Assembly (NCBI GenBank): GCA_031432545.1 | Contig: JAVKGX010000004.1 | Location: forward strand, 120,686-184,685 | DNA length: 64,000 nucleotides | Direction: 5' to 3' | Origin: Armatimonadota bacterium | Lineage (GTDB): Bacteria > Sysuimicrobiota > Sysuimicrobiia > Sysuimicrobiales > Sysuimicrobiaceae | Shown here: positions 7,676-38,173 of the stretch, piece after piece | Position numbering within the stretch: position 1 is the first letter of the stretch | How the letters are laid out: each line of letters opens with the position of its first letter | Translations under genes and position numbers: made by a program | The notes under the pieces: generated by a model | Told to the model about the DNA's origin: nothing | Seen by the model: only the letters and a program-made list of their open reading frames with translations | Databases searched by the model: none

Positions 7676-7743
7676 CCCGGCCCCCTCGCCGGCGCATGCG
7701 TCGCGCGAAGAGTCTTCCTCCTCGCGCAGTTGATCCCCTGCCT

Positions 7744-8502: not shown

Positions 8503-8506
8503 GCGC

Positions 8507-9544: not shown

Positions 9545-9547
9545 CGC

Positions 9548-11698: not shown

Positions 11699-12375
11699 GG
11701 AATCTCCGCCGAAGCCACCAGCCGGTGGTTCTCCGCCCGCACCTCGACGACGGTCACGGACAGGGGAAGCGCCGACAGGTCCAAGACGGGGTTGACGCCC
11801 GCTGCGAGCCCGGCCACCGCCGCCGACTCCACGCGGAACCCTCCGACCCGCAGCGTGTCAAGTTCCAGGTTGACCCGAGCGCCAGCAGCCACCAGCCTAC
11901 CCTCGGCTTGCACGACGTTCCCGAACAAAGGGGCTCGGACGCGCACCCTACCGTCCAGAAGGGTCAGTTCGAGGTCGACGTTGCGCTGCTGTCGGATATA
12001 GGCCTGCAGGTCGTCCTCGTGCACCACGACCCGCGCCCGGCCGCTTCCGACGTCCGCCACGCGCACCTCCTGGCGTCCCACCAACGCCCGCAGATCCAAC
12101 GCGACGTTGCGCATCTCCGCCTCGAAGGACTCGGCGGCAAGACCGGAGATGGTGACTTTACTCTGCCGCGACCGGACCGTGACCTGGGCAACCCTTCCTG
12201 CCAACAACAACAGCGGGTCGGCGCGGACCACCACGTCCAGCGCGTCGGGAGGATCTGCTGCCAACTGGTGGCGGATCTGCGCTTCCACCCCGGAAGCCAC
12301 GTAGCCCGACAGCGCGAACGCGCCGACCACCACCGCGACGAAGATGACAACGATCAGCCACAGAAATCGTAGCAT
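11695..12375 (-). CDS. DUF2993 (LmeA-like) membrane-anchored protein
   Basis: A 226-residue protein with an N-terminal signal anchor (MLRFLWLIVVIFVAVVVGAF) followed by a beta-rich exported domain. The repeated short strand pattern and the segment spacing fit DUF2993, the family of mycobacterial LmeA, which binds phospholipid and aids lipomannan maturation. I selected ATG 12375 because the hydrophobic anchor starts immediately there; longer readings overlap prfB. It ends in an ATGA overlap with DUF5693, so it is the first gene of the wall-polymer operon. The exact function here is unknown; lipid or polymer-carrier handling is a reasonable guess. Confidence 0.75.
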   Translation of the reverse strand: MLRFLWLIVVIFVAVVVGAFALSGYVASGVEAQIRHQLAADPPDALDVVVRADPLLLLAGRVAQVTVRSRQSKVTISGLAAESFEAEMRNVALDLRALVGRQEVRVADVGSGRARVVVHEDDLQAYIRQQRNVDLELTLLDGRVRVRAPLFGNVVQAEGRLVAAGARVNLELDTLRVGGFRVESAAVAGLAAGVNPVLDLSALPLSVTVVEVRAENHRLVASAEIP

Positions 12376-12403
12376 TGGGTGGTCGTTCGCCTGGGGGGAT
12401 GCC

Positions 12404-13571
12404 TCACGTCTCTGGCCCCCGGGCCCACCGATCGGGCTGGACGGCCACCTGTCCGCCCTCTCCGGGGGGCGCAGACGCCTGAGTGCCCCTCTGCCTGAGG
12501 AACGCGTAGATGAACGGGTCCAAGTCCCCGTCCAGGACGGCCTGGACATTGCCCGTCTCGTACCCCGTCCGGTGGTCCTTCACCAGCGTATAGGGCTGGA
12601 GCACGTAGGACCGGATCTGGTTGCCCCACGCGGCGTCCCGGTGCTCGCCGCGGATCTCACGCAGCCTGGCCGCCTGCTCACGCTGGCGGTGCTCGAACAA
12701 CCGCGCGGCCAAGATCCGCATCGCGTTCTCGCGGTTGGCGTGTTGCGACCTCTCGTTCTGGCACTGGACCACGATCCCGGTGGGTACGTGTGTGATGCGC
12801 ACCGCGGTCTCGACCTTGTTCACGTTCTGGCCGCCGGCTCCGCCGGCGCGGTACGTGTCGATCCGCAGGTCCTCGGGCCGGATTCCGACCTCGACGGCTT
12901 CGATCTCAGGCAGCACCTCCACCAGCGCGAACGAGGTGTGGCGGCGTTTGGCGGCGTCGAACGGCGAGATCCGAACCAGGCGGTGCGTGCCGTGTTCGCT
13001 GGCCAGATAGCCGTAGGCGTGTGCGCCCCGGACCAGTACCGTCACACTCTTGATCCCTGCCTCCTCCCCTGCCGACAAGTCGAGGATCTCCGTGGCGTAC
13101 CCACGCGACTCCGCCCACCGCAGGTACATGCGCAGCAGCATCTCGGCCCAGTCCTGGGCCTCCGTCCCCCCTGCGCCGGCGTGGATCGACAGGATCGCGT
13201 TCGCCTCGTCGTGCTCCCCGCCGAGGAGGGTCTCCAGTTCGAGCGCCTCCAGGCGCCGGTGCACCTCGGCGGCTTCTTGCTGCAGCAGCGCGATTTCGTC
13301 TGGGTCTTCCGGTCGGTCGGCGAGAAGGTCAGCCAGGTCGCGCAGGCCGCGCTCGATCTGTTCGAACGTCGACAACCGCTCGCGCAGCGTGGTCAGTTCC
13401 CGACCGACGGCCTTGGCCCGTTCGGGGTCCCGCCACAGGTCCTGCGCCTGCGCCATCCGCTCGAGATCGGCGATCCGCTCGCGCCAGCGGTCGGTGTCAA
13501 AGATGCCTCCCGATGTCGCGCAGGCGCTCTGCGTCCGCCTCCACCTGTGCGCGAAGTTCGTCTGCTGTCAC
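12404..13571 (-). CDS. prfB: Peptide chain release factor 2, expressed by programmed +1 frameshift
   Basis: RF2 terminates translation at UGA and UAA. The reading begins at GTG 13571 (GAGGTGA upstream), runs 24 codons and meets an in-frame TGA at 13499-13497. A +1 shift on CTT continues into a 350-codon frame to 12404. The large frame carries the GGQ tripeptide in [12 protein letters not shown] and, upstream of it, the tripeptide region of domain 2 that reads the stop codon. The joined product is about 374 residues, the normal RF2 length. Starting instead at the first ATG of the long frame (13456) would lose conserved N-terminal helix residues. Confidence 0.95.
13496..13511 (-). promoter_or_regulatory. 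prfB: RF2 programmed +1 frameshift site
   Basis: On the minus strand the order is GGGAGG (13511-13506), a 3-nt spacer CAT, then CTTTGAC (13502-13496). This reproduces the classical RF2 element: an internal Shine-Dalgarno-like block three bases before a slippery CTT and an in-frame TGA followed by C. Low RF2 slows termination and favours the shift, giving autoregulation. Confidence 0.95.
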
Positions 13572-13608
13572 CTTGTCACCTCACACTGCCCTCGCCAGTT
13601 CGACTGTA

Positions 13609-15618
13609 TCATAGGCCCAGCAGGGTGCGCAGGGCGGCGTCGCCTACGCCCCGCGCCACGACCGGGCCCAACACGCTGCCGGTGAGGCGGCGCACGCCGA
13701 AGAACAGGGCAGCGGTCACGACGTGCCATGCGGCGACCTCTCCTGCGGCCGCGCCGTGCAGGACGAGGGAACCCGCAACCGACACTCCGAATGCCGCCAG
13801 AGGCCAGCGCGCCAGCACGTGGGGAACTGCGCCGCGCAGCCAGATCTCCTCCCCGGCGCCCGCCAGCGCGGACAGCGCCACGGTCGCGGCGCCCGGCAAC
13901 CCGTCCGGGAGCGGGATCCCGTGGGCCGCATATCCGACGCGGATCAGCCACACCGCCACCACGACCGCTCCGGTCGCAACGACCACGCCCACCACCGGCC
14001 TGCCACCTGCCAGGCCCAGCCCCCGTGCGTCCGGCAGCACGGCGGCGACCGTCAGGAGGACGGCCACCATCGGGGCCACATCCGGCCACGGGCTGACCCA
14101 TGTCAGGGCCCCGACCGCCAGCCACGAGACCGCGGGTGCGACCAGAACGACGAGGCTGCGCGGGGGCAACTCGCGCAGCACGCCCGGGAGCACGGTGCCG
14201 ACCAGCGCCGCACATACGATCCACACCCACGCGTCACCGAATCGCGCGTAGGGCGTCGACCCGTCCCGGGGCGTGATCGCGCCGGGCAGCCACGCCCGCT
14301 CGAACCGCGGCAGGCTGGCGAGGATGCGGCCGTGTCGGTCGATGATCGCGGTCACGCCGGTGCTGGCGGCGCGCACGGCGTCCCGTCCCGACTCCACGGC
14401 GCGGAAGACCGTAAACCCCAGGTGCTGCAACGGTCCTGCCGAGGGCCCAAACCACCCTTCCTCCGTGGTGTGGACGAGGTAGCGGGCACCGCGGCGGACG
14501 AGTTCCCGCGTGGCAGACGGATACACCGACTCGTAGCAGATCAGAATCCCGGCCGGGCCCTGCGGGGCCGGCACCGGGATGAAGCCCGGGCCGGGCTCGG
14601 CCCACCACTCCCCCATCGGCACCAGCCGTACCTTGTCGTACCGCCCCGCCATGCCCTCGCGCGTGACCACCACCGCGCTGTTCCTCCGCCCTTCGATGTG
14701 GCCGGTCGCCACGACCGCTCCGTCCGCAGGCGCCGAGCGCTCCACCTCCGGCGGCACCTGCCCCGATCGCACCAACTCCTCCGGCCACACGTGTTCGGGC
14801 CACACGACCAGCTGTGCGCCAAAGGCGACCGCCTGGCGCGTCAGCGCAAGCAGCACGTCGCGGTTTCGCTCGACCAGGTCGGGCAGGAATTTCTCTCGCT
14901 GCGCGATGTTGTGCTGGATGGCAGCGACCCGAAGGATCCCGGCGTCCACGGGTTCCAGCCTGGCCGAACCCCACGCCCAGACCGCTGCGAGCACCACCAA
15001 CGCGCCGGCCGCGGGCAGCCACGCGCGCGTGCGGACCGCCACGGCCATCCCCGTGTTGACGAACACGACGAGGGCCGAAACGGCGAACACACCGCCGACC
15101 GATGCCACCTGCAGCACCGGCAGGTTTTGCCACTGGGAGTAGCCGACCAGCCCCCAAGGGAACGACGCGGTGCCCAGGGTCCGAACCCACTCCACCGCAA
15201 CCCAGCACGCTGGGATGCCGATCAGCCAACCGAGTGCGCGGCGGCCAGCTGTGGCCGCGCGCGCCAGCACACCGAACAGTCCGAAGAACAGAGCGACGGT
15301 GCAGACGACCACAGCGTAGGCCGGAACGCCGAAGACGGCCATCCACGAGAACACCAGAGCGTGGAAGGCCAAGCCGAACACGAAGGACGGGACAAACGCC
15401 TGGGTGGGTGTGAGTCCGTCGAGGGCCACCAGCAGCGGCACCAGCGCAATCCAGGCCAACGCGGCCCATCCGGGCGTGGGGAACGCCAGCGCCAGCAGCA
15501 CGCCGGACAGCGCGCCGGCCGCTACGCGCGGGAAGCGAAGACCAACCGCAGATTCGGCGTGCCGGGGTACGAGTGCAGCGGCCGCTCGCTCTTCAACCGG
15601 CCACGGACCACCGGCCAC
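13609..15618 (-). CDS. lnt: Apolipoprotein N-acyltransferase fused to a C-terminal CPBP-like intramembrane protease domain
   Basis: A 669-residue protein. Residues about 25-220 are multi-pass membrane helices and 225-455 the nitrilase-like domain of Lnt, which N-acylates lipoproteins. The catalytic triad is visible as Glu275 (VVWPEH), Lys329 (GRYDKVRLVP) and Cys361 (ILICYES). Usual Lnt ends near 500 residues. Here a further 170 or so residues form several helices carrying EEIWLR (EExxxR at 590-595) and a membrane His (H621), the pattern of CPBP/Abi proteases. The third CPBP motif looks degenerate (ARGVGD instead of HxxxN). The GTG start at 15618 lies 3 bp after the secA stop. Lnt suggests an outer membrane or actinobacterial-type lipoprotein maturation. 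Confidence 0.88.
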   Translation of the reverse strand: MAGGPWPVEERAAAALVPRHAESAVGLRFPRVAAGALSGVLLALAFPTPGWAALAWIALVPLLVALDGLTPTQAFVPSFVFGLAFHALVFSWMAVFGVPAYAVVVCTVALFFGLFGVLARAATAGRRALGWLIGIPACWVAVEWVRTLGTASFPWGLVGYSQWQNLPVLQVASVGGVFAVSALVVFVNTGMAVAVRTRAWLPAAGALVVLAAVWAWGSARLEPVDAGILRVAAIQHNIAQREKFLPDLVERNRDVLLALTRQAVAFGAQLVVWPEHVWPEELVRSGQVPPEVERSAPADGAVVATGHIEGRRNSAVVVTREGMAGRYDKVRLVPMGEWWAEPGPGFIPVPAPQGPAGILICYESVYPSATRELVRRGARYLVHTTEEGWFGPSAGPLQHLGFTVFRAVESGRDAVRAASTGVTAIIDRHGRILASLPRFERAWLPGAITPRDGSTPYARFGDAWVWIVCAALVGTVLPGVLRELPPRSLVVLVAPAVSWLAVGALTWVSPWPDVAPMVAVLLTVAAVLPDARGLGLAGGRPVVGVVVATGAVVVAVWLIRVGYAAHGIPLPDGLPGAATVALSALAGAGEEIWLRGAVPHVLARWPLAAFGVSVAGSLVLHGAAAGEVAAWHVVTAALFFGVRRLTGSVLGPVVARGVGDAALRTLLGL

Positions 15619-15621
15619 GGA

Positions 15622-18306
<2,685 letters not shown>

Positions 18307-26464: not shown

Positions 26465-26666
26465 CGCCCTTCCCTCCACGTAGATCCATTCTATCTCGGT
26501 CCCGGAGCACCCGTAGGAAATACTTTGTGCCGCCGCTAGAAATGACTCAGGCGTTGTGCGACCATTTGTTCGATACTCGAGCGAGGATTTGAGACGGCCC
26601 GTGGGGAACGTATCCCAAAGCGAGCGCCGACGGCGTTGCGTGTTTGAGGGCAGTTGGGAGGCCAGG

Positions 26667-27254
26667 ATGCCGCGAACCGAAGACGAAGATGCGTTGGAGC
26701 GTACGCTCCGACGGCGGCTGTATCGCAAGGACTGCCCGCCCCCCGAGGTGCTGGGCGAGATGCGCTTGGGGCTGCTCTCTCCGGCCAGGTCCGACGCGTT
26801 GGAGCACCACCTCCGCGACTGTCCGCACTGCCGGGCGGAGCTGCAATCCCTCGACCGGCTGCTGCAAACCGAAGACCGGGAGCGATCCGGCCTGCGCCGC
26901 CTGCTCGGCCGACTCATACCCCCGTCCATGGTGGCGGAGCGGCCGGCGTTCGCGTTGAGGGGCGGCGGTCGCCTGACCGACGCGACGTACGAGGCCGGTG
27001 ACTTCACGGTCATGCTGGCCATCCACGAAGATCCACAGGACCCACACGCTAGATCCATCCTGGGCATGCTCACTTCCGGATACGAGACCTCACTGGACGG
27101 GACCGCCTTCCTTGCCGGCGAGGCCGGCCACCTCGAAGCAGAGATCGACGAAGACGGCCAGTTCGCCTTCTCGGGGGTCGTGCCGGGGCGCTACGTGCTG
27201 GACCTGGAGGTCGGCTCGGTGCGCGTGGAACTCGAGCCGCTGGAGATTCGCTAA
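26667..27254 (+). CDS. zf-HC2 (anti-sigma-like) domain protein
   Basis: A 195-residue cytoplasmic protein. Residues about 20-60 contain the HxxxCxxC zinc motif (LEHHLRDCPHCRAEL) of ZAS-type anti-sigma factors. The rest has no membrane segment and ends in a small beta domain (FAFSGVVPGRYVLDLEVGSVRVELEPLEIR) like carboxypeptidase-regulatory modules. No sigma factor gene is adjacent, which is unusual for a ZAS protein. The ATG at 26667 with GGGAGG upstream is preferred over a longer reading from 26556. It ends about 65 bp before the promoter of the riboswitch array. Confidence 0.75.
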   Translation: MPRTEDEDALERTLRRRLYRKDCPPPEVLGEMRLGLLSPARSDALEHHLRDCPHCRAELQSLDRLLQTEDRERSGLRRLLGRLIPPSMVAERPAFALRGGGRLTDATYEAGDFTVMLAIHEDPQDPHARSILGMLTSGYETSLDGTAFLAGEAGHLEAEIDEDGQFAFSGVVPGRYVLDLEVGSVRVELEPLEIR

Positions 27255-27368: not shown

Positions 27369-27457
27369 ACCGTTCGAAGGGGCAAACCCGCAGCAATGCG
27401 GGGACGCAAAGCCTACGGGACCGCCGATCTGGCGGTCGGCCGGGTTGCCGAAGCGGT
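27369..27457 (+). promoter_or_regulatory. c-di-GMP-I (GEMM) riboswitch aptamer 1
   Basis: The GEMM core is plain: GGCAAACC, a hairpin with a GCAA tetraloop (CCCGCA-GCAA-TGCGGG), GGGACGCAAAGCC, a GC stem, then GCCGGGTTGCCG. The closing P1 helix pairs ACCGTTCG (27369-27376) with CGAAGCGGT (27449-27457), with one bulged G. The G directly before CAAACC is the base that selects c-di-GMP over cGAMP in this class. An intrinsic terminator starts 8 nt downstream, so this copy can act by transcription termination. Confidence 0.93.
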
Positions 27458-27464
27458 CAGATAG

Positions 27465-27496
27465 GCCCACTTCGACGTCGTCGCGGTGGGCTTTTT
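27465..27496 (+). terminator. Intrinsic terminator behind riboswitch 1
   Basis: GCCCAC (27465-27470) pairs with GTGGGC (27486-27491), followed by TTTTT (27492-27496). The CTTCG directly inside the 5' arm can instead pair with CGAAG of the aptamer P1 3' strand, so P1 formation (ligand bound) and an anti-terminator compete. That predicts termination when c-di-GMP is bound. Confidence 0.75.
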
Positions 27497-27517
27497 CATT
27501 GTAGCTGACCGTGTCAT

Positions 27518-27589
27518 CCGGACCGGGACATCCCCCCCTGCGTTCCGGTCCGGGGACGCCGCCGTGCGGGCCGCGTAGGCCCGCACGGC
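27518..27589 (+). other. Two strong hairpins between riboswitches 1 and 2
   Basis: A 9-bp stem pairs 27518-27526 with 27545-27553, and a perfect 12-bp stem pairs 27561-27572 with 27578-27589 around a 5-nt loop. Neither is followed by a T-run. They may insulate the aptamers, stall polymerase or be processing sites. No coding potential is apparent in this spacer. Confidence 0.5.
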
Positions 27590-27654
27590 GTATATCGCAC
27601 TGCCGACCGGTGCGGGGGTACCCGTCGGTTGGGGGGGAAAACCGAGTCGCATCC

Positions 27655-27738
27655 GGTTCGAAGGGGCAAACCTGCAGCGATGCGGGGACGCAAAGCCGAC
27701 GGGACCGCCCCCGAGGCGGTCGGCCGGGCTGCCGAACC
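27655..27738 (+). promoter_or_regulatory. c-di-GMP-I (GEMM) riboswitch aptamer 2
   Basis: The same core as copy 1 is present: GGCAAACC (27665-27672), a GCGA tetraloop hairpin, GGGACGCAAAGCC and GCCGGGCTGCCG. P1 is a perfect GGTTCG/CGAACC helix (27655-27660 with 27733-27738). Downstream, ACCAC overlapping the P1 3' strand can pair with GTGGT at 27780-27784 in an alternative stem; there is no T-run, so its output mechanism is unclear. Confidence 0.92.
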
Positions 27739-27799
27739 ACGCAGGTGCGCGCTTCGGACCCTGACAGGGGCGGGCGCTTGTGGTCTTCCGGCGCGCAAG

Positions 27800-27887
27800 C
27801 CCCTCGACAAAGGCAAACCCGCAGCGATGCGGGGACGCAAAGCCTACGGGACCGCCACCGAGGCGGTCGGCCGGGCTGCCGAAGGGG
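27800..27887 (+). promoter_or_regulatory. c-di-GMP-I (GEMM) riboswitch aptamer 3, overlapping the ribosome-binding site
   Basis: The core is nearly identical to copies 1 and 2. P1 pairs CCCCTCG (27800-27806) with CGAAGGGG (27880-27887). The G-run 27884-27889 is also the only credible Shine-Dalgarno sequence for the downstream TTG at 27896, six bases away. Ligand-stabilised P1 would hide it, so this copy is expected to block translation when c-di-GMP is high. Confidence 0.92.
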
Positions 27888-27895
27888 GGCGCTCC

Positions 27896-29074
27896 TTGGG
27901 GTACAGCGCCGAAAGAAAGAGAATCGCCGCGGTCGGCACTCTACTCACTGTGTTGGCTTTGGCCGCCGGCCGCTCTACCCAAGCGTCGGACCCCCCCGTC
28001 CGCGCGATCCGCTTCGATCCCGGATACTACTACAACACCGGTCTTTCGGCCGACGTGCTCGCCGCACGACTCGTGAATCACTGGGCGGATCACGGAGTAA
28101 ACCTCGTGTACTTCTATGCCTACAGTTTCGCCTATGGCGCCCGTTATCCCACGCGCTACTTGTACAACGCGCAGGAAGACTTCGGGCGCCTGAACCTCCT
28201 GCAGCGGATCGTCTCAGAAGCGCACCGCCGGGGCATCAGGGTGATCGCATGGGTGTACGTGCTGCGGCACAAGGGCGCCTGGGAGGCACGCCCGAGTTGG
28301 CGCAGCCTGACCGCCGACGGCACGCCGTACCGCGAAGGGTTCGACCAATACTTCCTGTCGCCGCACCATCCCGAGGCCGTGACCTGGTGGCTCGGTTTTT
28401 TGGAGGATTTGCTCCGGGCCGTGCCGGATCTCGATGGAGTCGACCTGGCGGAACCTGTCGTCAACTGGTGGGGAGACACTGCCGACCACTCCCTAGCAGC
28501 AACATACGCGTTTCACCGCGTCCATCCGCGCGTGCGTGTCGGCGGGCAGGAGTGGCTTCTGTTCCGCGCGGATGCGCTCCGTGTCGTCCTGGAGCGGAGC
28601 ACTGAGCTCGCGCGTCGGTACGGCAAGGAGGTCCACGTAACCACCGTAATGACGCCGGAGCCGAACGGCACCCTCATCTCATCCGACGCCCAACGGGACG
28701 CAACCGGATTCGATCTCGACGGCCTCCTATCCGGCAGGTTTCGCCCCGATGTCGTCAACGTGGAGCTGATCTTTCAACAGTGGGCCAGTCTGTATCGAAA
28801 CCCCGGCGTGTTCACGCCCGAGTGGACGGCGCGTGCCGCAAGAGCTGCCGATCGAAAGGTGCGCGGCCGTGCACGTCTTGTGATACACGTAGAACTGTCG
28901 TCGTTCGGGACGGCGTCTCCCACCGTGCCGGATCTGTCACGTGTCCTCACATCCCTCCAACGTGCGGGATACAGCTCCGTTGACGTGTACGCGGGCCATC
29001 TGATCGACGCCATCGGAGGGTGGGAAGCTCTGCGATCCGCCCTGCTTTCTCGGATCGCGGCTCACGGCCGGTGA
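27896..29074 (+). CDS. Secreted glycoside-hydrolase-like TIM-barrel protein under riboswitch control
   Basis: A 392-residue exported protein. The start is TTG 27896, preceded by GGGGGG; any longer reading would translate the riboswitches. A signal peptide spans about residues 1-31 (basic ERKRI, then AAVGTLLTVLALAAG). The mature domain begins RAIRFDPGYYY and has conserved barrel segments FYAYSFAYGARYPTRYLY, RIVSEAHRRGIRVIAWVYV and LDGVDLAEPVVNWWG. It is clearly paralogous to the first 390 residues of the 980-residue protein across the locus. This looks like the hypothetical glycosyl hydrolase (GHL) families that accompany exopolysaccharide systems. The Glu/Asp residues in DLAEP are candidate catalytic residues. 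The substrate is inferred to be the locus polysaccharide. Confidence 0.8.
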   Translation: MGYSAERKRIAAVGTLLTVLALAAGRSTQASDPPVRAIRFDPGYYYNTGLSADVLAARLVNHWADHGVNLVYFYAYSFAYGARYPTRYLYNAQEDFGRLNLLQRIVSEAHRRGIRVIAWVYVLRHKGAWEARPSWRSLTADGTPYREGFDQYFLSPHHPEAVTWWLGFLEDLLRAVPDLDGVDLAEPVVNWWGDTADHSLAATYAFHRVHPRVRVGGQEWLLFRADALRVVLERSTELARRYGKEVHVTTVMTPEPNGTLISSDAQRDATGFDLDGLLSGRFRPDVVNVELIFQQWASLYRNPGVFTPEWTARAARAADRKVRGRARLVIHVELSSFGTASPTVPDLSRVLTSLQRAGYSSVDVYAGHLIDAIGGWEALRSALLSRIAAHGR

Positions 29075-29107
29075 CACGCTTCCGCTGGCAACCAAGCGCA
29101 CCGGGGA

Positions 29108-30373
29108 TCAGTATCTCTTGGTCTTTTCCCACACCGGCTCGCCGCCCGGTCGCACTGTCCTCTGTCTCCTTCGCAGAGTCGGAACCATGCTGCGCAGCGC
29201 AACGTAGAGCCAAAGTTGTGTATAGGTAAAATACATCAGCGCCACGAGCAGCAGGTTCGGCAGGCGGTCTTCCCCCTCGATGACCAGCGTGATCGCAAAC
29301 TCAAGTACGAACATGGTGTACGCGAGAGCCCACAGGAGTCCAAACGGTCCCCACATAGAAAACCCGAGCCACCCCACCGCACCCCCGACAAACAGCACGT
29401 CGCTGAGAAGCACCGCGACCAAAAACAAGTAATACGTGGCGACCGACTGCAGGATCTCCAGCTTGACGGGAGAGTCCCACGGCTTCAACAGTTTGAAGAT
29501 GCTCTTCCGGATGACGTAGTTGTTCCCGCGCATCCACCGCATACGCTGCCGGATCCACACCCCGAGTTCCTCCGGCTCCTGTTCCCAGCTCACCGCCGTC
29601 GGCACGAATCCAATCCGCCAGCCCGCCTCATAGACACGAATCGTCAACTCCAAGTCCTCCGTGAGGGCACGCGGATCCCAGCCACCGACACGGTCAAGTA
29701 GATGCCTCCAAATCACGAAGTTGGTGCCCGGAAGAACCGTCAGGCCAGCGAGCCAGTACCTCCCGGCCTGATTGATCCACTGGTACGCGATGAACTCGAT
29801 GTTGGCCGAGCGCGTCATGAACGTCCGGCTACGGTTGAGGGTTCTGACCTTGCCGACGGCCGCACCCAGCTTCGACGAGTCGAGCAGCGCCGAGACCAGG
29901 TAACGCAGGGCGTAGCGATCCGGTCGGTTGTCTGCATCGTACACAGCAATCACATCGCCTGTTGCCGCTGCAAGGCCATGATTCAGAGCCACAGACTTCC
30001 CCCGGCCGCCCGCCGTTGCCGGTATGGACACCACAGTGAGTCTGTCGTGCTCGCGCTTCATTCCCTCCAGAATTTCCCCGGTCGCGTCCGTAGATCCGTC
30101 GTCGATCACGATGATCTCGACGCGTTCCCGCGGATAGTCCATCTCCGAGATTGCAGCGACCGTATCGGCAATCACCCGCTCCTCGTTACGGGCCGGAATC
30201 AATATCGACACGGTGGGCAAGTCGCGATGCACACGGAGAAGCTTTGGAAAGTAGTCTCTTGCGTGTCGGCTGTAGTGGTAACCGGCTACTGTCAGCACCA
30301 GGTAGTAGACGAGCAGCGCCCAGATCACAGCGACGCAGCTGTAGTAGACAATCAGAATCGCCGTACCGGTCAC
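29108..30373 (-). CDS. Processive family 2 glycosyltransferase (PgaC/BcsA-like polysaccharide synthase)
   Basis: A 421-residue membrane synthase. An N-terminal helix pair (residues about 5-30) precedes the GT-A domain: DDGSTD (91-96), YDADNRP with the DxD (145-151), acceptor-site TED (238-240) and QRMRW (276-280), the Q(Q/R)xRW motif of processive synthases. Three or four C-terminal helices (about 305-400) form the translocation pore. No PilZ domain follows, unlike BcsA, so c-di-GMP control must come from another subunit. It overlaps the upstream gene by 4 bp (ATGA) and ends the operon. A beta-1,4- or 1,6-linked hexose or GlcNAc polymer is the usual product; identity unknown. Confidence 0.92.
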   Translation of the reverse strand: MTGTAILIVYYSCVAVIWALLVYYLVLTVAGYHYSRHARDYFPKLLRVHRDLPTVSILIPARNEERVIADTVAAISEMDYPRERVEIIVIDDGSTDATGEILEGMKREHDRLTVVSIPATAGGRGKSVALNHGLAAATGDVIAVYDADNRPDRYALRYLVSALLDSSKLGAAVGKVRTLNRSRTFMTRSANIEFIAYQWINQAGRYWLAGLTVLPGTNFVIWRHLLDRVGGWDPRALTEDLELTIRVYEAGWRIGFVPTAVSWEQEPEELGVWIRQRMRWMRGNNYVIRKSIFKLLKPWDSPVKLEILQSVATYYLFLVAVLLSDVLFVGGAVGWLGFSMWGPFGLLWALAYTMFVLEFAITLVIEGEDRLPNLLLVALMYFTYTQLWLYVALRSMVPTLRRRQRTVRPGGEPVWEKTKRY

Positions 30374-33312
30374 CGAAGGTCCCTCCCACGGAGCCTGCGC
30401 AGCTTAATGCGCAAGTACAGCGTCAGCAGCAGCATCGTCCCAACGGCAGCCAACAACGACAACATCACCCCCAGAATCGCGCCGGCACGGCCCACGGCGT
30501 CCATTTCCCGCCACCGCCTCGCGTTCACCTCCAAGACGTACTCGGCGTGCAGGAAAAGGGCGCGAACGCTCATGGGGTGAAAGTGGAGGACCTCCAGAAT
30601 TAGCAGGCTGTCGGGACGCGTCCTCAACGCAACCTCGTACCGTTGGGTCTCGCGGATGCGACGCACGGACCGGGTCCGAACGCTTCCGGCACGGTCCACT
30701 TCGAGCTCACGAAGATACTGCCCCGCCTCGAAATGCAGCCGGACAGTACCCTCGGTCGAAACGATCGCCAGAGTATCGTCGACGACGCGGGCCGGCGCCA
30801 ACTGTCGAAGCGACGTGAAAGCAAAGCCTTCGCGTTTTGCCGCCGCCACGATTTCCCCCAGGACCGCATCGGACGCTGTTGAGGGCACGTCGATGACCGC
30901 CAGCGCATCGCGCACCATTCTCAAAGCGCGGAATGTGTCGTGGCCGGATTGGGGCCACTCCCTGGCCAGGACATTCGGAGACAACACGGTATGGCCATGC
31001 ACATCCTGCCACACCAGATAAGGAAACCGTTGCTGGACCGGCCGTCCGTGAGCGAATGCATACTGGCGAGACTCGACCATCAGAGAGAACGTGTTCCCGA
31101 ACATCGTATAGTCGAAGGGGGATGCCAAACCCCCCGGTGTCATCCATGCGATGGGGAACAGGCCTACCCGCCGCAGTGCCGTAAGCCCGGCACTCAGTCG
31201 GTCCCGGATCAACTCCACGGAGTCGTCCTCCCGCGCTTGGCCTCTCAGAGCGTCCCAGAACTCGAAGTCGGTGCCCGTCCGGCCCCGGAACTGGTGGCTG
31301 TAGCCAGCCAATACGATGTCCGCGCCGGAGCGGGCCAACGCACGCAGGCCATCCACCACAGCCGGGCGATCTTCGAGTCGCACTTGGATTTCGAGAACGG
31401 GATCTACGAACGTAGGCGTGACCGCGACGACCATGCGTACGCCGCTACGATCGGAGAACGCAGCCAGGCGCCACAGGTCTGTTGGCTCCACCTGCGGGTG
31501 CACGTTGCTGACAACCAGGACCGCACGGCGGTCGGCCGCATGCGGGGTCCGCAGCACATCGTGCAGGAGATCCGCCACGATCCACTGCAGGGGCGTCGTC
31601 TCGGGCTCGACATAGAGGTATCCGGCCACATACCAGAAATTGTTTTTCCGGACGACGACGGGCGCGTGTTGCTGGCCCACCGATCCTTCGGCGACGACTT
31701 CCACCGTCATCTCGCGTTGCCGCACTCCCAAAATCGGAATCCGCGGTCGCACTACCGCTTCCACCCCGCGATAACGCACCGCGTCCATTGCGCTCACCGA
31801 TACGGGAATCGGCTGATCGATGCCCAGGTCAGAATCCGTCACACGGAGGAGCTGCCACAGATTCGCTCCGACCCAGAGGACTGACCCTGTGTAACGATCG
31901 AGGTCCGCCAGCAATCGCGGCGGCAGCGGCGCATCCCACTGGGTTCCTTGGTAGATGACGGCATCGAACTTGTGAACGTCTCCCGCTCGATAGTCCGACA
32001 CCGTCTGCGTCTCGACCAGGACACGGAAGTGGCCGAGGAGGTTCACGAGCAACTTGGTGGCCAGCCGCGGGGCCGTTGATGCGTCACGATCCTCGTCCTC
32101 AAGCACAAGAACCGTCTGTGCCGGCCGGCGCCGATCCGGTACCTGGGGTGCCTCACCTCGAAAGGCTCGAAGCAGCCAGGGCCACGCATTCTTATCGTCG
32201 GCCAGTTTGCTTCCGTACACGTCGAACTCCCTCGCCCCCGCCAACCAGGCGGCCCGCATCGCCAAGTACGTCTCCTCGGGGGTAACGCGGCGCTGGCCGA
32301 AGTCGGTGAGTTCAACGTGCACAATCGTCCTGACACGGCCACCGATCCTGCGTAGGATTTCCGACGTCGCGTATCCTGTCCACCCAGGCGTGAAGGTCAC
32401 GTAGTCATACACATTCCCCCACTGCTGCCAGATGATCTCGACCTTGATGGCATCCGGATTATTGGGGGGCGCCAGGATTGCTTCCAAGTCGAATCCCGTC
32501 TGAGCTGCCTGCTCCTCGCTGGTCAACAAACGTCCATCCCCCCATGCAGATACCACGCTCGTCACGTGAATCTCTCGCCCGTGCTCCCGCACGAGCCGTA
32601 CGGTGGTTCTCACGAACTCCGTCAACTGCTCCGCCCGCCAGCGGATCCAAATACGTCCTCCAAGCGCGGCACCTGGGTGCGCTGCTCTGAACGCGCGTAC
32701 CGCCTCCGGGTGATAATCGGCCTCTGTGCCCCACCAGTTGATCACCGGCTCTCGCAGCTCGATTCCGTCGAGATCGGGATAGTTCACCAACACCTCTCGC
32801 AGCAGGCCCAACCACCAGCTGACCACCTCAGGGTGGGACACCGACAAAAAGTACTGGACATCGACACCACGTGGGTTGAAGTCCCTCCCGTCCCTTCTCT
32901 TGGCCCTCCAGTCGGGCCGTGCCAGCCAGGCGCCGCGGTGCGTGTGGCTGTAAAAGGCCGCGAAGACACGGATTCTGCGAGCGTGCGCTTCCTGGATCAA
33001 CAAGCGGAGGAAGTCAGCCCGTCCAAGCGTGTCCATCGTGTTGTGGATGTAGGTGGTTCGGTAGTAGGCGCCGTACGCGACGTTGTAGGCGTTCACGTAG
33101 ACCACATTGACTCCGTGGGCAGCCCACAAGGCAGCGAGCCGTGCCGCTAGGTGTTCTGGCGATACCCGTAGGGGGTAGTAGTCGGCGGGGTCGACGACGA
33201 TCGCACGAATAGGATCGGACGCTAAAGCTGTCGTTCCAAACGCCGGCAACGACGCCGTCATGACGACGAGCAGCACGGCGAAGGAAACGTACCTATTCGA
33301 GGGCACGGGCAT
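30370..33312 (-). CDS. Exported glycoside-hydrolase-like / deacetylase-like membrane protein
   Basis: A 980-residue protein. It contains a signal peptide (1-31), a GHL-type TIM barrel (33-390, paralogous to the riboswitch-controlled gene), a flavodoxin-like alpha/beta region (398-590), a polysaccharide-deacetylase-like DUF2334 region (595-860), a beta-rich tail and one C-terminal membrane helix (about 941-968) with a basic end. In the deacetylase-like part the expected metal-binding Asp pair is replaced (SNVHP at 602-606) and the HGYxH motif reads AGYSHQ (669-674), so it may be catalytically weak or dead. The hydrolase-plus-deacetylase layout recalls PelA and PgaB. It starts at ATG 33312 inside the end of the GGDEF gene. 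Confidence 0.82.
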   Translation of the reverse strand: MPVPSNRYVSFAVLLVVMTASLPAFGTTALASDPIRAIVVDPADYYPLRVSPEHLAARLAALWAAHGVNVVYVNAYNVAYGAYYRTTYIHNTMDTLGRADFLRLLIQEAHARRIRVFAAFYSHTHRGAWLARPDWRAKRRDGRDFNPRGVDVQYFLSVSHPEVVSWWLGLLREVLVNYPDLDGIELREPVINWWGTEADYHPEAVRAFRAAHPGAALGGRIWIRWRAEQLTEFVRTTVRLVREHGREIHVTSVVSAWGDGRLLTSEEQAAQTGFDLEAILAPPNNPDAIKVEIIWQQWGNVYDYVTFTPGWTGYATSEILRRIGGRVRTIVHVELTDFGQRRVTPEETYLAMRAAWLAGAREFDVYGSKLADDKNAWPWLLRAFRGEAPQVPDRRRPAQTVLVLEDEDRDASTAPRLATKLLVNLLGHFRVLVETQTVSDYRAGDVHKFDAVIYQGTQWDAPLPPRLLADLDRYTGSVLWVGANLWQLLRVTDSDLGIDQPIPVSVSAMDAVRYRGVEAVVRPRIPILGVRQREMTVEVVAEGSVGQQHAPVVVRKNNFWYVAGYLYVEPETTPLQWIVADLLHDVLRTPHAADRRAVLVVSNVHPQVEPTDLWRLAAFSDRSGVRMVVAVTPTFVDPVLEIQVRLEDRPAVVDGLRALARSGADIVLAGYSHQFRGRTGTDFEFWDALRGQAREDDSVELIRDRLSAGLTALRRVGLFPIAWMTPGGLASPFDYTMFGNTFSLMVESRQYAFAHGRPVQQRFPYLVWQDVHGHTVLSPNVLAREWPQSGHDTFRALRMVRDALAVIDVPSTASDAVLGEIVAAAKREGFAFTSLRQLAPARVVDDTLAIVSTEGTVRLHFEAGQYLRELEVDRAGSVRTRSVRRIRETQRYEVALRTRPDSLLILEVLHFHPMSVRALFLHAEYVLEVNARRWREMDAVGRAGAILGVMLSLLAAVGTMLLLTLYLRIKLRRLRGRDLR

Positions 33313-34213
33313 CCGTGCTGGTAAGCATCAGGCCGCGGCCAGACAGTTCGGCGCGTCGGAGCGTCGCCTTCACCGCCTCCAGCAAAGCCTCAGCCGACTC
33401 GCCGTCCTGAGGGTACGAGACGACGGCACCTGAAAGGGTGAAGCGGACCTCCTGTCCATTGGGAGCCAAAATCGGTGGGCGGCTCGACGACGACAACAGC
33501 CTTCGCAAGGCGACAGCCGCACGCGCTGCGTCCGTCTCCGGCAAGAGAAGGAGGAAGCGCCCCGGTTCGTCCTCCGCCAGGTGGTCGAAGCGACGCACCT
33601 GGCTGAGCATCTGACGTGCGATCTGCGTAACTGCTTCGGCGGCAGCTTTGGGACCGTGGGCCGCCTCGATCTCTCGAAGATTGTCGATCTGCATTGCGAC
33701 GAGTGTCAAAGGACGACCGTACCGCTGCGCGCGTGCAACCTCCTCGACGAGACTGAGTCTCATTCGGCTGCTCGTGTACAGCCCCGTTGTCGGATCGATG
33801 GCGGACAGGGCGGCCAGACTCTGGGAGGCGTGTTCCAGTCGCTCTTGAATCTGGGCGCGGGTGCGGGCCGTCGCCTGTGAGATCCACGTGGCAGCCGCGA
33901 GCATAGCGAGCCACAAGGCGCCCAAGCCCCGCCACGCCTCCTGGGCAACCCGCCAGGGCACGACCAGGCTTGTGCCAACGACCAGAACAACCGCGAGGGC
34001 AACCAGAAGTGCCACCGGGCGGTCGAAGTGCAGCCCAGCGCCGAGAACAACGGCAATACCCAGCGGCCCGGCCACGTGCCACGGCTGGGCGGTGTGTGTT
34101 GCCAAAAGCGCCGTCAATACAACTATCACGATGTGCCCCCACAGAACTGCGGTCAGAGATGGTACGCGGTCGACCCCGCTGGACTTCACAGCGTTCCGCC
34201 TGTCCTCCCACAT
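33293..34213 (-). CDS. Membrane protein with degenerate GGDEF domain and intact I-site (PelD-like c-di-GMP receptor)
   Basis: A 306-residue protein: about four membrane helices (residues 20-112), a short coiled coil (115-135) and a GGDEF-fold domain (138-306). The catalytic GGDEF is EPGRF (216-220) and the metal-binding Asp of the first motif is Gln (MQID), so it cannot make c-di-GMP. The inhibitory-site motif RxxD is kept as R207-R-F-D210 with exactly five residues before the former GGDEF, as in PleD and PelD. This predicts a c-di-GMP receptor that activates secretion. It is smaller than PelD, with no GAF domain. ATG 34213 has GGGGGA upstream; the TTG at 34237 overlaps the previous stop. Confidence 0.85.
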   Translation of the reverse strand: MWEDRRNAVKSSGVDRVPSLTAVLWGHIVIVVLTALLATHTAQPWHVAGPLGIAVVLGAGLHFDRPVALLVALAVVLVVGTSLVVPWRVAQEAWRGLGALWLAMLAAATWISQATARTRAQIQERLEHASQSLAALSAIDPTTGLYTSSRMRLSLVEEVARAQRYGRPLTLVAMQIDNLREIEAAHGPKAAAEAVTQIARQMLSQVRRFDHLAEDEPGRFLLLLPETDAARAAVALRRLLSSSSRPPILAPNGQEVRFTLSGAVVSYPQDGESAEALLEAVKATLRRAELSGRGLMLTSTDARALE

Positions 34214-34233
34214 GTCGAATCCCCCGCGTTGCG

Positions 34234-35469
34234 TCAACGGGCTGCGTCCTTATGCACCTGGATGACCGCGCCGTGATAGTAGTGCCCTAGGATCTGGCGG
34301 TAGGAGTAACCAGCGCGCGCCAGGCCCCATGCCCCATGCTGCGATAGGCCAACGCCGTGTCCGAGACCGAACCCCTCGACCCAAATGCCATCGCTCGTCG
34401 GCCGGACTTCGGCTCGTGCGCCGGGTAGACCCAGCGCAGTGCGAATCGGATCGGCCCCGTCAATCCGTAACCTGCCCTCCGAGTGCGCGACTTCCACCCT
34501 CATGAGTCTCTGCGATGCTCCGCCGCGCAGCGCTTGGATGCTGCGAACCTCGGTCACCAAGAACCCAGACTCACGCAACTTCTGCTCGATCTGCCGCCAC
34601 GTTAGAAACCTGGACCACCGCCAGCTGTCTTCGTACCCTGGGAGTTCGAGAGCCGACCGGTCGTATGGCGAGGCGACCGCGCGGAGATAGGGAAACTGAG
34701 ACCGAACCGAGCCCGGCCACACGACGTCGACCGTCTCCGTGTGTCCACCAGCGTTGGCGTCGTAAGCCGCGAACATCGGCCGGTCTGAATAGGTGAGCAC
34801 CTCCCCGAAAGTTGCCTGCACGGCGTGCCTGGCGAGGGGGGTCTCACCGGCGACACCTCGGTACACCTGGTCGGAAACCGACACGTCGAAGCCGGCATGC
34901 TGCCAGCGGCGTTCCACCCGGGCGACGTAGAGTGCGAATGTGCGGCTGATCACCGCCTGCACCTTGAAGGCTTCGGGATGGGCAAACATTTCGTTGGCCA
35001 CGACACCCGCCACGTAGTCCTCGATGCTAACCCGGTTGACGATTCTGAATCCCGAGCCTTCCGGCCAGACTTCCAGTGCGCCGCGCCATTGACTGCCATT
35101 GAGTTCCAGAAGCTTTCGGCGGTCGCGCGGGCGAATCGTCAGCGGCAGGTCGAGCGCCGCCTCCAGCCCATCGATACGAACGCGGGGTCTGATGCCTGCG
35201 GTGATCTCGAGACGCCCGACGGGGGACCGGCGGACTCCCCGAGCCTCGACTTCCGCCTCTCCGACGATCCGCACGGACGGTATGGCGTTGGTACCGTGCC
35301 ACAGCGCCACCCGCAGCTCCACCGGGACGGTAGCCGCTTCCAACCCGACCGGGTACGAGCCTGCCAGGACCCACCCCGACGCTAGGGTCGCAGACAGAAG
35401 GGGGGACACGATCCATCGGTTAACCCGCTGCCATCCGCGCTGCCTGCACACTTCTACCCCCCAGCTCAC
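34234..35469 (-). CDS. SpoIID/LytB-domain protein (peptidoglycan-processing type)
   Basis: A 411-residue exported protein with a hydrophobic N-terminal segment (about residues 18-45). The SpoIID domain includes VSIEDYVAGVVANEMFAHPEAFKVQAVISRTFALY, which contains the catalytic Glu of SpoIID lytic transglycosylases, and the C-terminal FGLGHGVGLSQHGAWGLARAG signature. It may open peptidoglycan glycan strands for the polymer export machinery; this is inferred from its place inside the synthase operon. GTG 35469 is the upstream end of the frame; GTG 35451 has a better GGGGGG ribosome site and is equally likely. Confidence 0.87.
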   Translation of the reverse strand: MSWGVEVCRQRGWQRVNRWIVSPLLSATLASGWVLAGSYPVGLEAATVPVELRVALWHGTNAIPSVRIVGEAEVEARGVRRSPVGRLEITAGIRPRVRIDGLEAALDLPLTIRPRDRRKLLELNGSQWRGALEVWPEGSGFRIVNRVSIEDYVAGVVANEMFAHPEAFKVQAVISRTFALYVARVERRWQHAGFDVSVSDQVYRGVAGETPLARHAVQATFGEVLTYSDRPMFAAYDANAGGHTETVDVVWPGSVRSQFPYLRAVASPYDRSALELPGYEDSWRWSRFLTWRQIEQKLRESGFLVTEVRSIQALRGGASQRLMRVEVAHSEGRLRIDGADPIRTALGLPGARAEVRPTSDGIWVEGFGLGHGVGLSQHGAWGLARAGYSYRQILGHYYHGAVIQVHKDAAR

Positions 35470-35523
35470 CCGCTGACCCCACCGTCAAGACCCTGGTGAG
35501 CAAGAACCGTGCCTTGTTGATCT

Positions 35524-36609
35524 CTAGCCGACCTCCTCTGAGCAGCGAATCTGGAATCCATTCCGTATCGTCTGCACCACGGGCTTTCCGAGGATTGCCC
35601 ATCCCCGGTCGTCCGGTGGGGTGGTCACGGCGGTGGGCCAGTAGAACCAGACGCTTCCCCGCCACCAAGATGCATGATCACAGAAGATATCGAATACCGA
35701 CTGGGCTGCTGTGGCCTGTTCCCGGAGATCCTGCACGGGTCTGCCGGTGTCAGCCGGAACACGAGCTGCCGAGTTCCACGGTTCGATAGCCGCACCTTCG
35801 ATGCTCCGATAGCCAACTTCAAGGAAGACGATCGGTTTCCCGAAGCGCCGGCTGATCGTTGCAAGTTGATATACGATGTCGTGCCCGTGCCGCGATGCGC
35901 GCCACCCCCTCCGCATCTCCGCCAGTGTCGCGCGAGGCTTGTTGACCAGGTCGAAGTAGGGTGCCAGTCCGATGACGTCCACATCCGCTAACCAATCCGA
36001 GGACAAAATGCGGTGCCAGTCCCTGAGATCCCACCAGGAGTTCAGTTTTACTGCTATCCATCCCCGGTAAACGGAGCGGATCTCCCGAATGATACGGCGC
36101 CAGGAGGAGGTCTCCTCTAGGAGGGAGGTGTACTCGTTGAAGATCGTCAGCAAGGAGACGTTCTCGTGCTGTGCCACCCGTGCGTATCCCTGCATCAGCC
36201 TCCCATAGGATCGAAACCACTGGGATCGATCTTCCGGCGCAACCAAGGCCGCCCAAGCGCGGCCCCCGTCGACCAACAAGTGGACGATCCAGGAGACTTC
36301 TCTACCCCCCTGCCTTGCTCGCCGAGTCAGACTCCGGATCGCGTCCAATTGCCTGTCACCGTCCGAGATGGTAGATGACGTCATGGATTCTTGGTCGAAG
36401 AAAAACCGAAATTGTACCCACTGCGTCTCCGGGACGTCCACGAGCAAACGACTCAGTGCTCGAAGTGCCTCGGGACTGTGGTAGGGGTTCGCGTCGGGGT
36501 ATAGTTCGACACCCCGCACGTACATTGGCGTCGACCCGACCGACATTGTTGCCGTGGTGAGCACGAAACCGATCGCAACGGCGAACTGCACGCACCGACT
36601 CCGGGCCAC
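35524..36609 (-). CDS. Exported GH113-like glycoside hydrolase
   Basis: A 361-residue protein with an N-terminal signal or anchor (FAVAIGFVLTTATMSVG). The TIM barrel has NEYTSLLEE (acid/base Glu region) and VFLEVGYRSIEGAAIEPW (nucleophile Glu region), matching the GH113 mannanase-like pattern. GTG 36609 follows AAGGA at proper spacing; an upstream GTG-rich extension to 36738 adds a non-conserved N-terminus. It is the first gene of the five-gene polysaccharide operon. It could trim or length-control the polymer. A weak TTGAGT-17-GTAGAC promoter-like pair lies upstream around 36771-36800. Confidence 0.82.
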   Translation of the reverse strand: MARSRCVQFAVAIGFVLTTATMSVGSTPMYVRGVELYPDANPYHSPEALRALSRLLVDVPETQWVQFRFFFDQESMTSSTISDGDRQLDAIRSLTRRARQGGREVSWIVHLLVDGGRAWAALVAPEDRSQWFRSYGRLMQGYARVAQHENVSLLTIFNEYTSLLEETSSWRRIIREIRSVYRGWIAVKLNSWWDLRDWHRILSSDWLADVDVIGLAPYFDLVNKPRATLAEMRRGWRASRHGHDIVYQLATISRRFGKPIVFLEVGYRSIEGAAIEPWNSAARVPADTGRPVQDLREQATAAQSVFDIFCDHASWWRGSVWFYWPTAVTTPPDDRGWAILGKPVVQTIRNGFQIRCSEEVG

Positions 36610-37024
36610 TGATCCTTCTAACCCGGATCCCTCACCGCAAGCAACTCCTGGCGCTTGCAGCGAGCCATTCCCTGCCTTCAGATTCCAGGGCACGCTCGAT
36701 CGCCCCCTCGGCTGACACCGCGCATGCGACTGGCACATCGCACTTACCCCCTAACATCACTAGGTCCGGAGAGGAAGTCTACCTCGGGGTCGCCATCTGA
36801 CTCAACGGATTGACCGCCGCCAACGTTCCAACGAGGCGCAGACTGGCGGGATGCCCCGGCTTCACCATACCGACGCAGGCGGTCCATTCGCGTCCGAACG
36901 GGGAAGGACGATCCGCGAACCTGGCGACCAGCCAGCGGACTCAGCGTCCGGACCCGCCGCGACCCATCGTGTTGGCTACCCGGACGGGCTTCGGCAGTTT
37001 GCGAGAAGTCCCGGGCCTTGTTGG
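36610..37024 (-). other. 415-bp region between nagA and the polysaccharide operon, no gene seen
   Basis: No reading frame here has plausible codon use or motifs; the one open frame on the minus strand is the shadow of nagA continued. I searched by eye for a c-di-GMP aptamer (GGCAAACC and GACGCAAAGCC) and did not find one. It probably contains the operon promoter and the nagA 3' end. Confidence 0.5.
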
Positions 37025-38173
37025 CTACGGCCCTGGCAAAGCGACACCCCCTCTGCCCACGATCCTCCCGGCGACGAGGGTCAAAGCAGCCCTGCCATCT
37101 GGCCCGAGCACGCACAGATCGGCCCGCATCCCGGCCTCGATCCTGCCTCGGTCTGACAGCCCGAGCAGCCGCGCGGGTGTGGCGGCTGCCATACGCACCG
37201 CGTCCCGCATCGGAATTCCCCACCGCACTGCGTTGGCGACCGCCGTGTCCATGCGGAGGGTGCTTCCGGCCAGCGTCCCGTCCGGGAGTCTCGGCTGGCC
37301 GTCGGCGGCTACAAAAATGGGTGCGCCGGCCAGGGTGTACTCACCAGGAGGCATCCCCGCGGCGGCGACGGCATCCGTGACCAGCGCGATCCGATCGGCG
37401 CCGAGCAGCCGGTAGGCGCACCGCGCGACCGCCGGATGCACGTGCACGCCGTCGGCGATCAGCCCGCACACGCAGGACGGATCGTCCAAGGCGGCTGCTA
37501 CCAGGCCGGGATCCCTGTGGTGGAAGGTGCGCATCGCATTGAACAGGTGCGTCACCATACGAACGCCTTTCCCGAATGCATGCGCCGCCTGTTCGTACGT
37601 CGCGTCGCTGTGGCCGGCGGACACGACGACGTGTTCTTGCGTGAGCTGTACGATCAACTCATCGGCTCCTGGCAGCTCCGGCGCCAGCGTGACGAGCCTC
37701 AGATCGGGCGACGCTTGCGCGTACAGCGCGCGTACCTCAGGGTCGTCGGGAGTGCGCAGCCACCGAGCCTCGTGTGCACCGCGCCGGACGGCGTTCAACG
37801 CCGGTCCCTCGAAGTGCATCCCCAGCAGCTCGGCTCCGGCCGCATGCGCCCAGCGGAGGATGCCCACAGCCCGGCGAGCACGGTCGGGTGCACACGACAC
37901 GAAAGTCGCCAGGAACCCCGTTGTCCCAGTAGATGCCAAGTAGACGGACAACCTCTCGACGTCGTCCTCGGAGCAGTCCAGCAGGTCCACGCCAGCCGCG
38001 CCGTTGACCTGGAGATCGATGAACCCAGGCACCAGAATCCCGTTCGGAAACTCCCAGTCCGAGGAGGGGGGCACGCCCGGACGAACGTCGTCGATCCTAT
38101 CGCCGCGGATCTCGACGTAGCCGGGTTGCAGATCCTGATCCCCTGTGACCACACGACCCACGGAGAGGATCAT
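37025..38173 (-). CDS. nagA: N-acetylglucosamine-6-phosphate deacetylase
   Basis: A 382-residue amidohydrolase-fold enzyme converting GlcNAc-6-P to GlcN-6-P and acetate in amino-sugar recycling. The PGFIDLQVNGAAG opening, metal-site Glu in GMHFEGPAL, AGHSDATYEQ with its His, THLFNAM and the catalytic Asp in LVTDAVAAAGMPPG are present. It is of normal length. It lies upstream of the polysaccharide operon on the same strand and next to the mod operon. It fits functionally with nagZ 4 kb away. Confidence 0.94.
   Translation of the reverse strand: MILSVGRVVTGDQDLQPGYVEIRGDRIDDVRPGVPPSSDWEFPNGILVPGFIDLQVNGAAGVDLLDCSEDDVERLSVYLASTGTTGFLATFVSCAPDRARRAVGILRWAHAAGAELLGMHFEGPALNAVRRGAHEARWLRTPDDPEVRALYAQASPDLRLVTLAPELPGADELIVQLTQEHVVVSAGHSDATYEQAAHAFGKGVRMVTHLFNAMRTFHHRDPGLVAAALDDPSCVCGLIADGVHVHPAVARCAYRLLGADRIALVTDAVAAAGMPPGEYTLAGAPIFVAADGQPRLPDGTLAGSTLRMDTAVANAVRWGIPMRDAVRMAAATPARLLGLSDRGRIEAGMRADLCVLGPDGRAALTLVAGRIVGRGGVALPGP

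Follow-up and report, generated by a model that had tools for sequence, protein, structure and literature searches.

The window analysed here is a 64,000-nucleotide stretch of the genome of an Armatimonadota bacterium (NCBI GenBank assembly GCA_031432545.1, contig JAVKGX010000004.1, positions 120,686 to 184,685 of the forward strand), and it carries what is best explained as a variant form of the synthase-dependent yda-type exopolysaccharide system, a description that fits better than “ydaJKLMN orthologue”. Five minus-strand genes, in the order GH113, SpoIID/LytB, degenerate GGDEF, GHL10-DUF2334 and GT2, converge with a plus-strand gene for a secreted GHL10 hydrolase, and three riboswitch aptamers for cyclic di-guanosine monophosphate (c-di-GMP) precede the latter. 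The account that we regard as reasonably probable is that c-di-GMP activates the synthase through a receptor protein and represses the convergent, matrix-releasing hydrolase through the riboswitches. A reading of the sequence alone had proposed that an exopolysaccharide synthase locus is linked to c-di-GMP and that riboswitches control a paralogous hydrolase, which is secreted, and that outline is supported: its six genes are all present as intact open reading frames (ORFs), and its three c-di-GMP riboswitches match Rfam models above the gathering scores (35, 35 and 59 for aptamers 1, 2 and 3). Two of its boundaries changed, as the locus does not end at 36609 (the GH113 gene extends to 36738) and the receptor, taken to have 306 residues from what is an internal ATG, is an ORF of 314 amino acids (aa) starting at a TTG. 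The features are as follows.

27371..27452, plus strand: c-di-GMP-I riboswitch aptamer 1 (Rfam RF01051, 65.3 bits, E = 1.6e-10)
27464..27494, plus strand: intrinsic terminator 3′ of aptamer 1 (by folding, a stem of -18.5 kcal/mol followed by a U-run)
27655..27736, plus strand: c-di-GMP-I aptamer 2 (RF01051, 57.0 bits, E = 1.7e-8)
27767..27803, plus strand: anti-P1 hairpin, -21.3 kcal/mol (by folding)
27803..27884, plus strand: c-di-GMP-I aptamer 3, GGC subtype (Rfam RF03167, 64.3 bits, E = 7e-13)
27882..27898, plus strand: Shine-Dalgarno sequence AAGGGGGG (27882-27889) and TTG start (27896) (sequence, folding)
27896..29074, plus strand: secreted GHL10 glycoside-hydrolase-like protein, 392 aa, with signal peptide (Pfam, homology)
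29108..30373, minus strand: processive GT2 polysaccharide synthase, YdaM-type, with DDG, DADN, TED and QRMRW motifs (Pfam, motifs, relatives)
30370..33312, minus strand: 980-aa membrane-anchored exported GHL10-DUF2334 protein (Pfam, predicted structure)
33293..34237, minus strand: putative YdaK-type c-di-GMP receptor with degenerate GGDEF (Pfam, I-site, model)
34234..35469, minus strand: exported SpoIID/LytB-like protein of the lytic-transglycosylase family (TIGR02669, match to SpoIID in the PDB)
35524..36738, minus strand: exported GH113-family (beta-1,4-mannanase-like) hydrolase (Pfam, mannanases in the PDB)

Neighbouring genes on the minus strand show overlaps of 4 or 20 nt or a gap of 54 nt, the spacing expected of a single operon. 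Judged by sequence, receptor, DUF2334 protein and GT2 correspond to YdaK, YdaL and YdaM, the core of the exopolysaccharide system ydaJKLMN of Bacillus. The GT2 (Pfam E = 2e-39) is 43-46% identical to GT2s from operons that encode GH8, GGDEF, DUF2334, GT2 and BcsB proteins, and a complete operon of this kind (L054) was among the relatives found first. The receptor has a GGDEF domain (Pfam E = 8e-17) with a degenerate GGDEF motif (EPGRF) and an intact I-site (R215-x-x-D218); in the predicted structure, four transmembrane (TM) helices (24-46, 52-70, 73-98 and 105-143) are followed by a GGDEF fold. YdaK of B. subtilis likewise has four TM helices and a degenerate motif (SDERI), and its I-site matters: exopolysaccharide is lost with either R202A or D205A, and the R202A protein no longer binds c-di-GMP or responds to it (PMC5422440, PMC7064775). 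The RxxD of the I-site is invariant in 39/39 genuine receptors, all of which have lost the GGDEF motif (one apparent exception, a mis-predicted ORF, is left out of the 39). Five strong GGDEF proteins are encoded in the genome, which suggests that the cell makes c-di-GMP.

Other synthase-dependent systems fit less well. The receptor had been called PelD-like. PelD consists of four TM helices, a GAF domain and a degenerate GGDEF domain, and its partners are PelF, a GT4, and PelG. Here Pfam detects no GAF domain and the model has no room for one, so that PelD is the wrong name and YdaK-like is the better one; the pel system was rejected for this missing GAF domain and because the synthase is a GT2, not a PelF-type GT4. 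The pga/ica system for poly-N-acetylglucosamine (PNAG) was rejected on the score of the GT2 against the PgaC/IcaA equivalogue TIGR03937 (169.9 bits, cut-off 422.3), and bcs cellulose on its score against the CelA/BcsA equivalogue TIGR03030 (100 bits, cut-off 699) together with the lack of BcsB. With the Nfr system, whose NfrB has a C-terminal MshEN c-di-GMP-binding domain (PMC8669469), the GT2 is shared only at the level of the general family. As neither pel, pga nor bcs, the gene set had been proposed as a possibly undescribed system, but its core is of the known ydaJKLMN kind, which has also been predicted in C. difficile (PMC7710045).

The core is common among relatives of the synthase. A scan of named genomes with a GT2 profile gave 80 yda-type loci (L057-L136), the best GT2 relatives, from many phyla and picked on GT2 similarity alone. 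A DUF2334 gene lies immediately upstream of the GT2 in 75 of them, and in the remaining five (L062, L071, L102, L104, L108) the contig starts at most 2.3 kb upstream of the GT2. A degenerate-GGDEF receptor is present at 36 loci, and these mostly include BcsB (32), with GH8 at 22 and GH113 at 11. Across the whole set GH8 occurs at 23 loci and GH113 at 12, never together, and the window locus falls into the group with GH113. A linked WecB is present at 20 loci, 17 of them without a receptor. These two patterns may reflect different polymers. BcsB is found at 2 of the 44 loci without a receptor gene and absent from the other 42, so its presence is no defining trait of the wider group. A search of the genome contigs with a GHL10-pair profile gave no matches (the GT2 profile search succeeded).

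The window is unusual in that GHL10 is fused to a DUF2334 domain without its predicted catalytic residues, SpoIID has been added, BcsB is lacking from the entire genome and a riboswitch array is present. B. subtilis ydaJKLMN shares the RxxD-bearing four-TM degenerate-GGDEF receptor, a DUF2334 protein, a processive GT2 and a gene for an extracellular hydrolase in one operon (PMC5422440, PMC7064775, PMC13274460). In contrast to B. subtilis, the window lacks a BcsB-like YdaN, has GH113 in place of the GH8-type protein, contains SpoIID, and has a DUF2334 domain that is joined to GHL10 and looks catalytically dead; the convergent hydrolase under riboswitch control has no counterpart there, where yda is controlled by SigB. 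The yda-type locus of C. difficile (L088; PMC7710045) shares receptor, DUF2334, GT2 and GH113 but has BcsB and WecB in the cluster and no GHL10, SpoIID or GEMM-I (c-di-GMP-I) array. Three Armatimonadota loci (L082, L100 and L124; Ca. Hebobacteria and others) have the sister GT2 and GHL10 joined to DUF2334 sequence; two of them (L082 and L100) also have a standalone GHL10. No degenerate GGDEF, SpoIID, GH113 or riboswitch was found at these three loci, and GHL10 is C-terminal in their fused protein, unlike in the window. As a side observation, locus L049 (G222:C121:27000-46000, 7415-18147) is a diderm version with receptor, DUF2334, GT2 and GH8, and it also encodes a TPR protein of 1794 aa, barrel-like at its C-terminus, which may be the exporter.

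The 980-aa protein had been described as hydrolase- and deacetylase-like. Its domains bear this out (Pfam GHL10 E = 2e-8, DUF2334 E = 1e-21), whereas deacetylase activity does not look likely. The model consists of a GHL10 barrel (36-384), an alpha/beta domain, DUF2334, a beta-sandwich and two C-terminal TM helices. The GHL10 domain looks active. Its barrel is closest in fold to the glycosidase domain of PgaB (Z 31.6, root-mean-square deviation 2.8 over 329 residues), with Cwp19 (Z 31.0) a near second; the substrate of PgaB is deacetylated PNAG, so the match is in line with an amino-sugar substrate. PgaB (a GH153 domain with a CE4 deacetylase) and PelA also combine a hydrolase barrel and a deacetylase-type domain in one periplasmic protein, but there is no membership at the sequence level, the window has a DUF2334 domain without its motif in place of CE4, and pga or pel operon partners are missing. 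PelA is not among the fold matches listed, which proves nothing, and the PelA-like domain order is an impression only. In DUF2334 the substitutions E602S, D603N, H669A, E724M and H727G remove a conserved E-D pair, one histidine and the E-P-H-Y motif, positions whose catalytic role is deduced from conservation and CE4-like spacing; all four core positions are kept in 55 of 75 sequences (window included). An active DUF2334 or CE4-like deacetylase would be expected to carry the E/D-D and H-x-x-x-H motifs for catalysis and metal, which are not intact here. With these residues lost, the domain is probably a non-catalytic scaffold.

The secreted hydrolase (Pfam GHL10 E = 1.7e-6; 27.8 bits, just under the cut-off of 27.9) is 42-44% identical to the N-terminal GHL10 part of the 980-aa protein, and the two group together in a tree with moderate support (90/91). 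Its nearest relative, at 49% identity, is the standalone GHL10 that accompanies the same operon in Ca. Hebobacteria. From its sequence and setting, it probably cuts the polymer made by the operon. The other two exported proteins resemble known enzymes: GH113 is a mannanase family, and the window member keeps its motifs (Pfam E = 1e-26; mannanases in the PDB, E = 7e-9), as the SpoIID-like protein keeps the NEM motif of the catalytic region (Pfam E = 2e-18; TIGR02669 181 bits, cut-off 83; SpoIID in the PDB, E = 3e-23). An amino-sugar polymer of the N-acetylhexosamine or N-acetylmannosamine (ManNAc) type appears most likely. Scott et al. predicted a ManNAc-rich polymer for the yda-type locus of C. 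difficile, which is among the GH113-bearing loci and includes WecB (PMC7710045); wecB is present in this genome too, unlinked to the locus. Two elements of amino-sugar metabolism lie elsewhere in the window, namely nagA (37025-38173) and a glmS ribozyme/riboswitch (52630-52865, minus strand; RF00234, 40.1 bits, gathering score 37).

How the hydrolase responds to c-di-GMP depends on its leader, which is formed by the three aptamers between an anti-sigma-like gene and the hydrolase. (The anti-sigma-like protein, encoded at 26556-27254 on the plus strand directly 5′ of the array, has a weak zf-HC2 zinc-finger match.) Aptamer 2 is identical to aptamer 1 at 72/82 positions. The sequence-only reading had predicted that the hydrolase is OFF at high c-di-GMP, from overlaps of P1 with both the Shine-Dalgarno sequence and the terminator; the first overlap stands and the second does not. 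First, P1 of aptamer 3 (27799-27805 paired with 27884-27890) holds in its 3′ strand the Shine-Dalgarno sequence of the TTG at 27896, and the hairpin at 27767-27803 takes the 5′ strand of P1, so that hairpin and P1 are mutually exclusive. Ligand should thus favour P1 and block translation: this switch probably turns translation off at high c-di-GMP. Second, the terminator stem after aptamer 1 (27464-27491; a pattern scan also marks 27476-27488) does not overlap the 3′ strand of P1 (27449-27458). A possible antiterminator (27449-27474, -8.6 kcal/mol) is the sole link between P1 and terminator and would give OFF, and shuffled P1 strands pair equally well in about 5% of cases; the modelled mode of switch 1 is ambiguous. 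With one good and one ambiguous expression platform, an OFF mode for the hydrolase is plausible.

The mechanism that we infer, from the enzyme activities and polymer to the direction of the switches in the cell and the substrate shared by synthase and hydrolase, would run as follows. The GT2 would polymerise and extrude an amino-sugar polymer once c-di-GMP, bound at the I-site of the YdaK homologue, has activated it; the membrane-anchored GHL10-DUF2334 protein would handle and trim the nascent chain, GH113 would trim or release polymer, and SpoIID would open peptidoglycan for its passage. The convergent secreted GHL10 would act as a matrix-releasing hydrolase whose translation c-di-GMP represses (aptamer 3), possibly along with transcription (aptamer 1 and terminator). 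The net result, polymer made when c-di-GMP is high and cut or released when it is low, is a plausible logic on the sequence evidence.

Several observations weigh against this account. In folding calculations the mean unpaired probability of the Shine-Dalgarno sequence is 0.31 without ligand and 0.14 with it, as a local hairpin partly hides the site, so the predicted on/off contrast is modest; the terminator of aptamer 1 is favoured with or without P1. A GEMM-I array was sought at the other yda loci examined and none was found, which leaves riboswitch control without comparative support. The argument for a shared substrate of synthase and hydrolase comes from paralogy and neighbourhood. BcsB (PF03170) is absent genome-wide (E. 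coli and B. subtilis served as positive controls), and the operon contains no outer-membrane exporter, while the organism is probably diderm because Omp85 was found.

An alternative that we consider unlikely is that the synthase is of the yda type but that high c-di-GMP switches the hydrolase ON through the array, or that the array exerts graded or two-input control, so that hydrolase and synthase cooperate. Built-in trimming hydrolases accompany synthases in pel, pga and bcs, and in Ca. Hebobacteria the standalone GHL10 and the synthase genes share a strand, which suggests co-expression. The phylum also uses both designs: c-di-GMP-I riboswitches occur in 43/43 of its genomes (1 to 13 each, several in tandem), and this GEMM-I network includes further leaders with the Shine-Dalgarno sequence in P1 (L149, L151, L155, L160, L161), a recurrence that speaks for the preferred account, as well as leaders where the 5′ arm of a terminator overlaps P1, an ON layout (L157, L163, L166). 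A terminator does follow aptamer 1, the switch of ambiguous mode, but it lies clear of P1, unlike in the usual ON design, and it is the Shine-Dalgarno sequence of the hydrolase, adjoining its start codon, that lies in P1 of aptamer 3.

Less probable still is that the substrate of the secreted GHL10, of SpoIID and perhaps of GH113 is the cell wall (denuded peptidoglycan glycans) and not an exopolysaccharide, with the riboswitches controlling how the wall is remodelled or how cells separate. Denuded glycans of peptidoglycan are what SpoIID cleaves, DigH of E. coli is a GHL10-family protein, and Cwp19 of C. difficile, one of the best fold matches of the GHL10 barrel, is a peptidoglycan lytic transglycosylase. 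DigH is also a hydrolase specific for denuded glycans (PMC12288456). However, the operon also encodes a processive GT2 and a receptor of the YdaK type, all of the nearest GHL10 relatives found come from GT2/DUF2334 loci (among loci collected by GT2), and PgaB, which cuts an exopolysaccharide, ties as the best fold match. A decayed or non-functional acquired island that makes no polymer is very improbable: the lack of BcsB and of an exporter, the lost DUF2334 residues, the low G+C and the single occurrence in the phylum would suit it, but all six ORFs are intact, the motifs of GT2 and GH113 are preserved, as is the I-site of the receptor, and BcsB is also missing from most relatives outside Bacillota (see the receptor-less loci above).

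Conservation of the six genes in relatives had been proposed as a check on the system, and its outcome is mixed: the locus is in 1 of 43 phylum genomes, whereas the core recurs across many phyla and hydrolase and synthase occur together in Armatimonadota. In these 43 genomes the 980-aa protein was found only here; DUF2334 matches in the six other members of the family belong to a short protein beside a short GT2 and were set aside as a different locus. The window GT2 is sister to GT2s of Armatimonadota (Ca. Hebobacteria) with support of 97/82, to be read with caution given its long branch. The six genes have a G+C content of 60-65% (mean 68.5%, standard deviation 2.8, across 2-kb windows) and a G+C content at third codon positions of 0.70-0.75, compared with mostly 0.8-0.9. 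Given this composition and distribution, the island was probably acquired by horizontal transfer. The riboswitch leader has 69% G+C, the local level, and GEMM-I occurs in every genome of the phylum, so host RNA control may front an imported gene; this is no more than suggestive, as structured RNA is G+C-rich anyway.

If the preferred account, activation of the synthase and repression of the hydrolase, is true, one signal may turn polymer making on and breakdown off. A more specific version, which we put forward tentatively and hold to be somewhat doubtful, is two-layer control of one polymer by c-di-GMP: a protein receptor turns the synthase on, tandem riboswitches keep a dedicated hydrolase off, an imported island has been wired into the GEMM-I network of the phylum, and a built-in deacetylase has turned scaffold. 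We know of no described riboswitch on an exopolysaccharide-specific hydrolase. The nearest described logic, an attachment factor and a releasing enzyme under opposite c-di-GMP control, is that of C. difficile, where the adhesins CD2831/CD3246 and the protease Zmp1/PPEP-1 are under opposite c-di-GMP riboswitches (PMC6366702); the window differs in that the synthase has a protein receptor and the riboswitches precede the gene of a polysaccharide hydrolase. More broadly, the yda-type synthase reaches far beyond the one example studied in detail, with a core that spans Bacillota, Bacteroidota, Ignavibacteriota, Armatimonadota and Myxococcota and an I-site that is invariant where the receptor is present. 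The window variant, whose hydrolase is self-contained and has an RNA switch that is tractable, could help to identify the polymer and to find out whether dispersal answers to the signal that governs synthesis. A GEMM-I aptamer at another locus (L014; G000 C4:62858-62945, minus strand; 75.8 bits) lies downstream of an EF-P-like gene and a second gene with a degenerate GGDEF and just ahead of a small secreted protein, with an usher- or adhesin-like ORF nearby.

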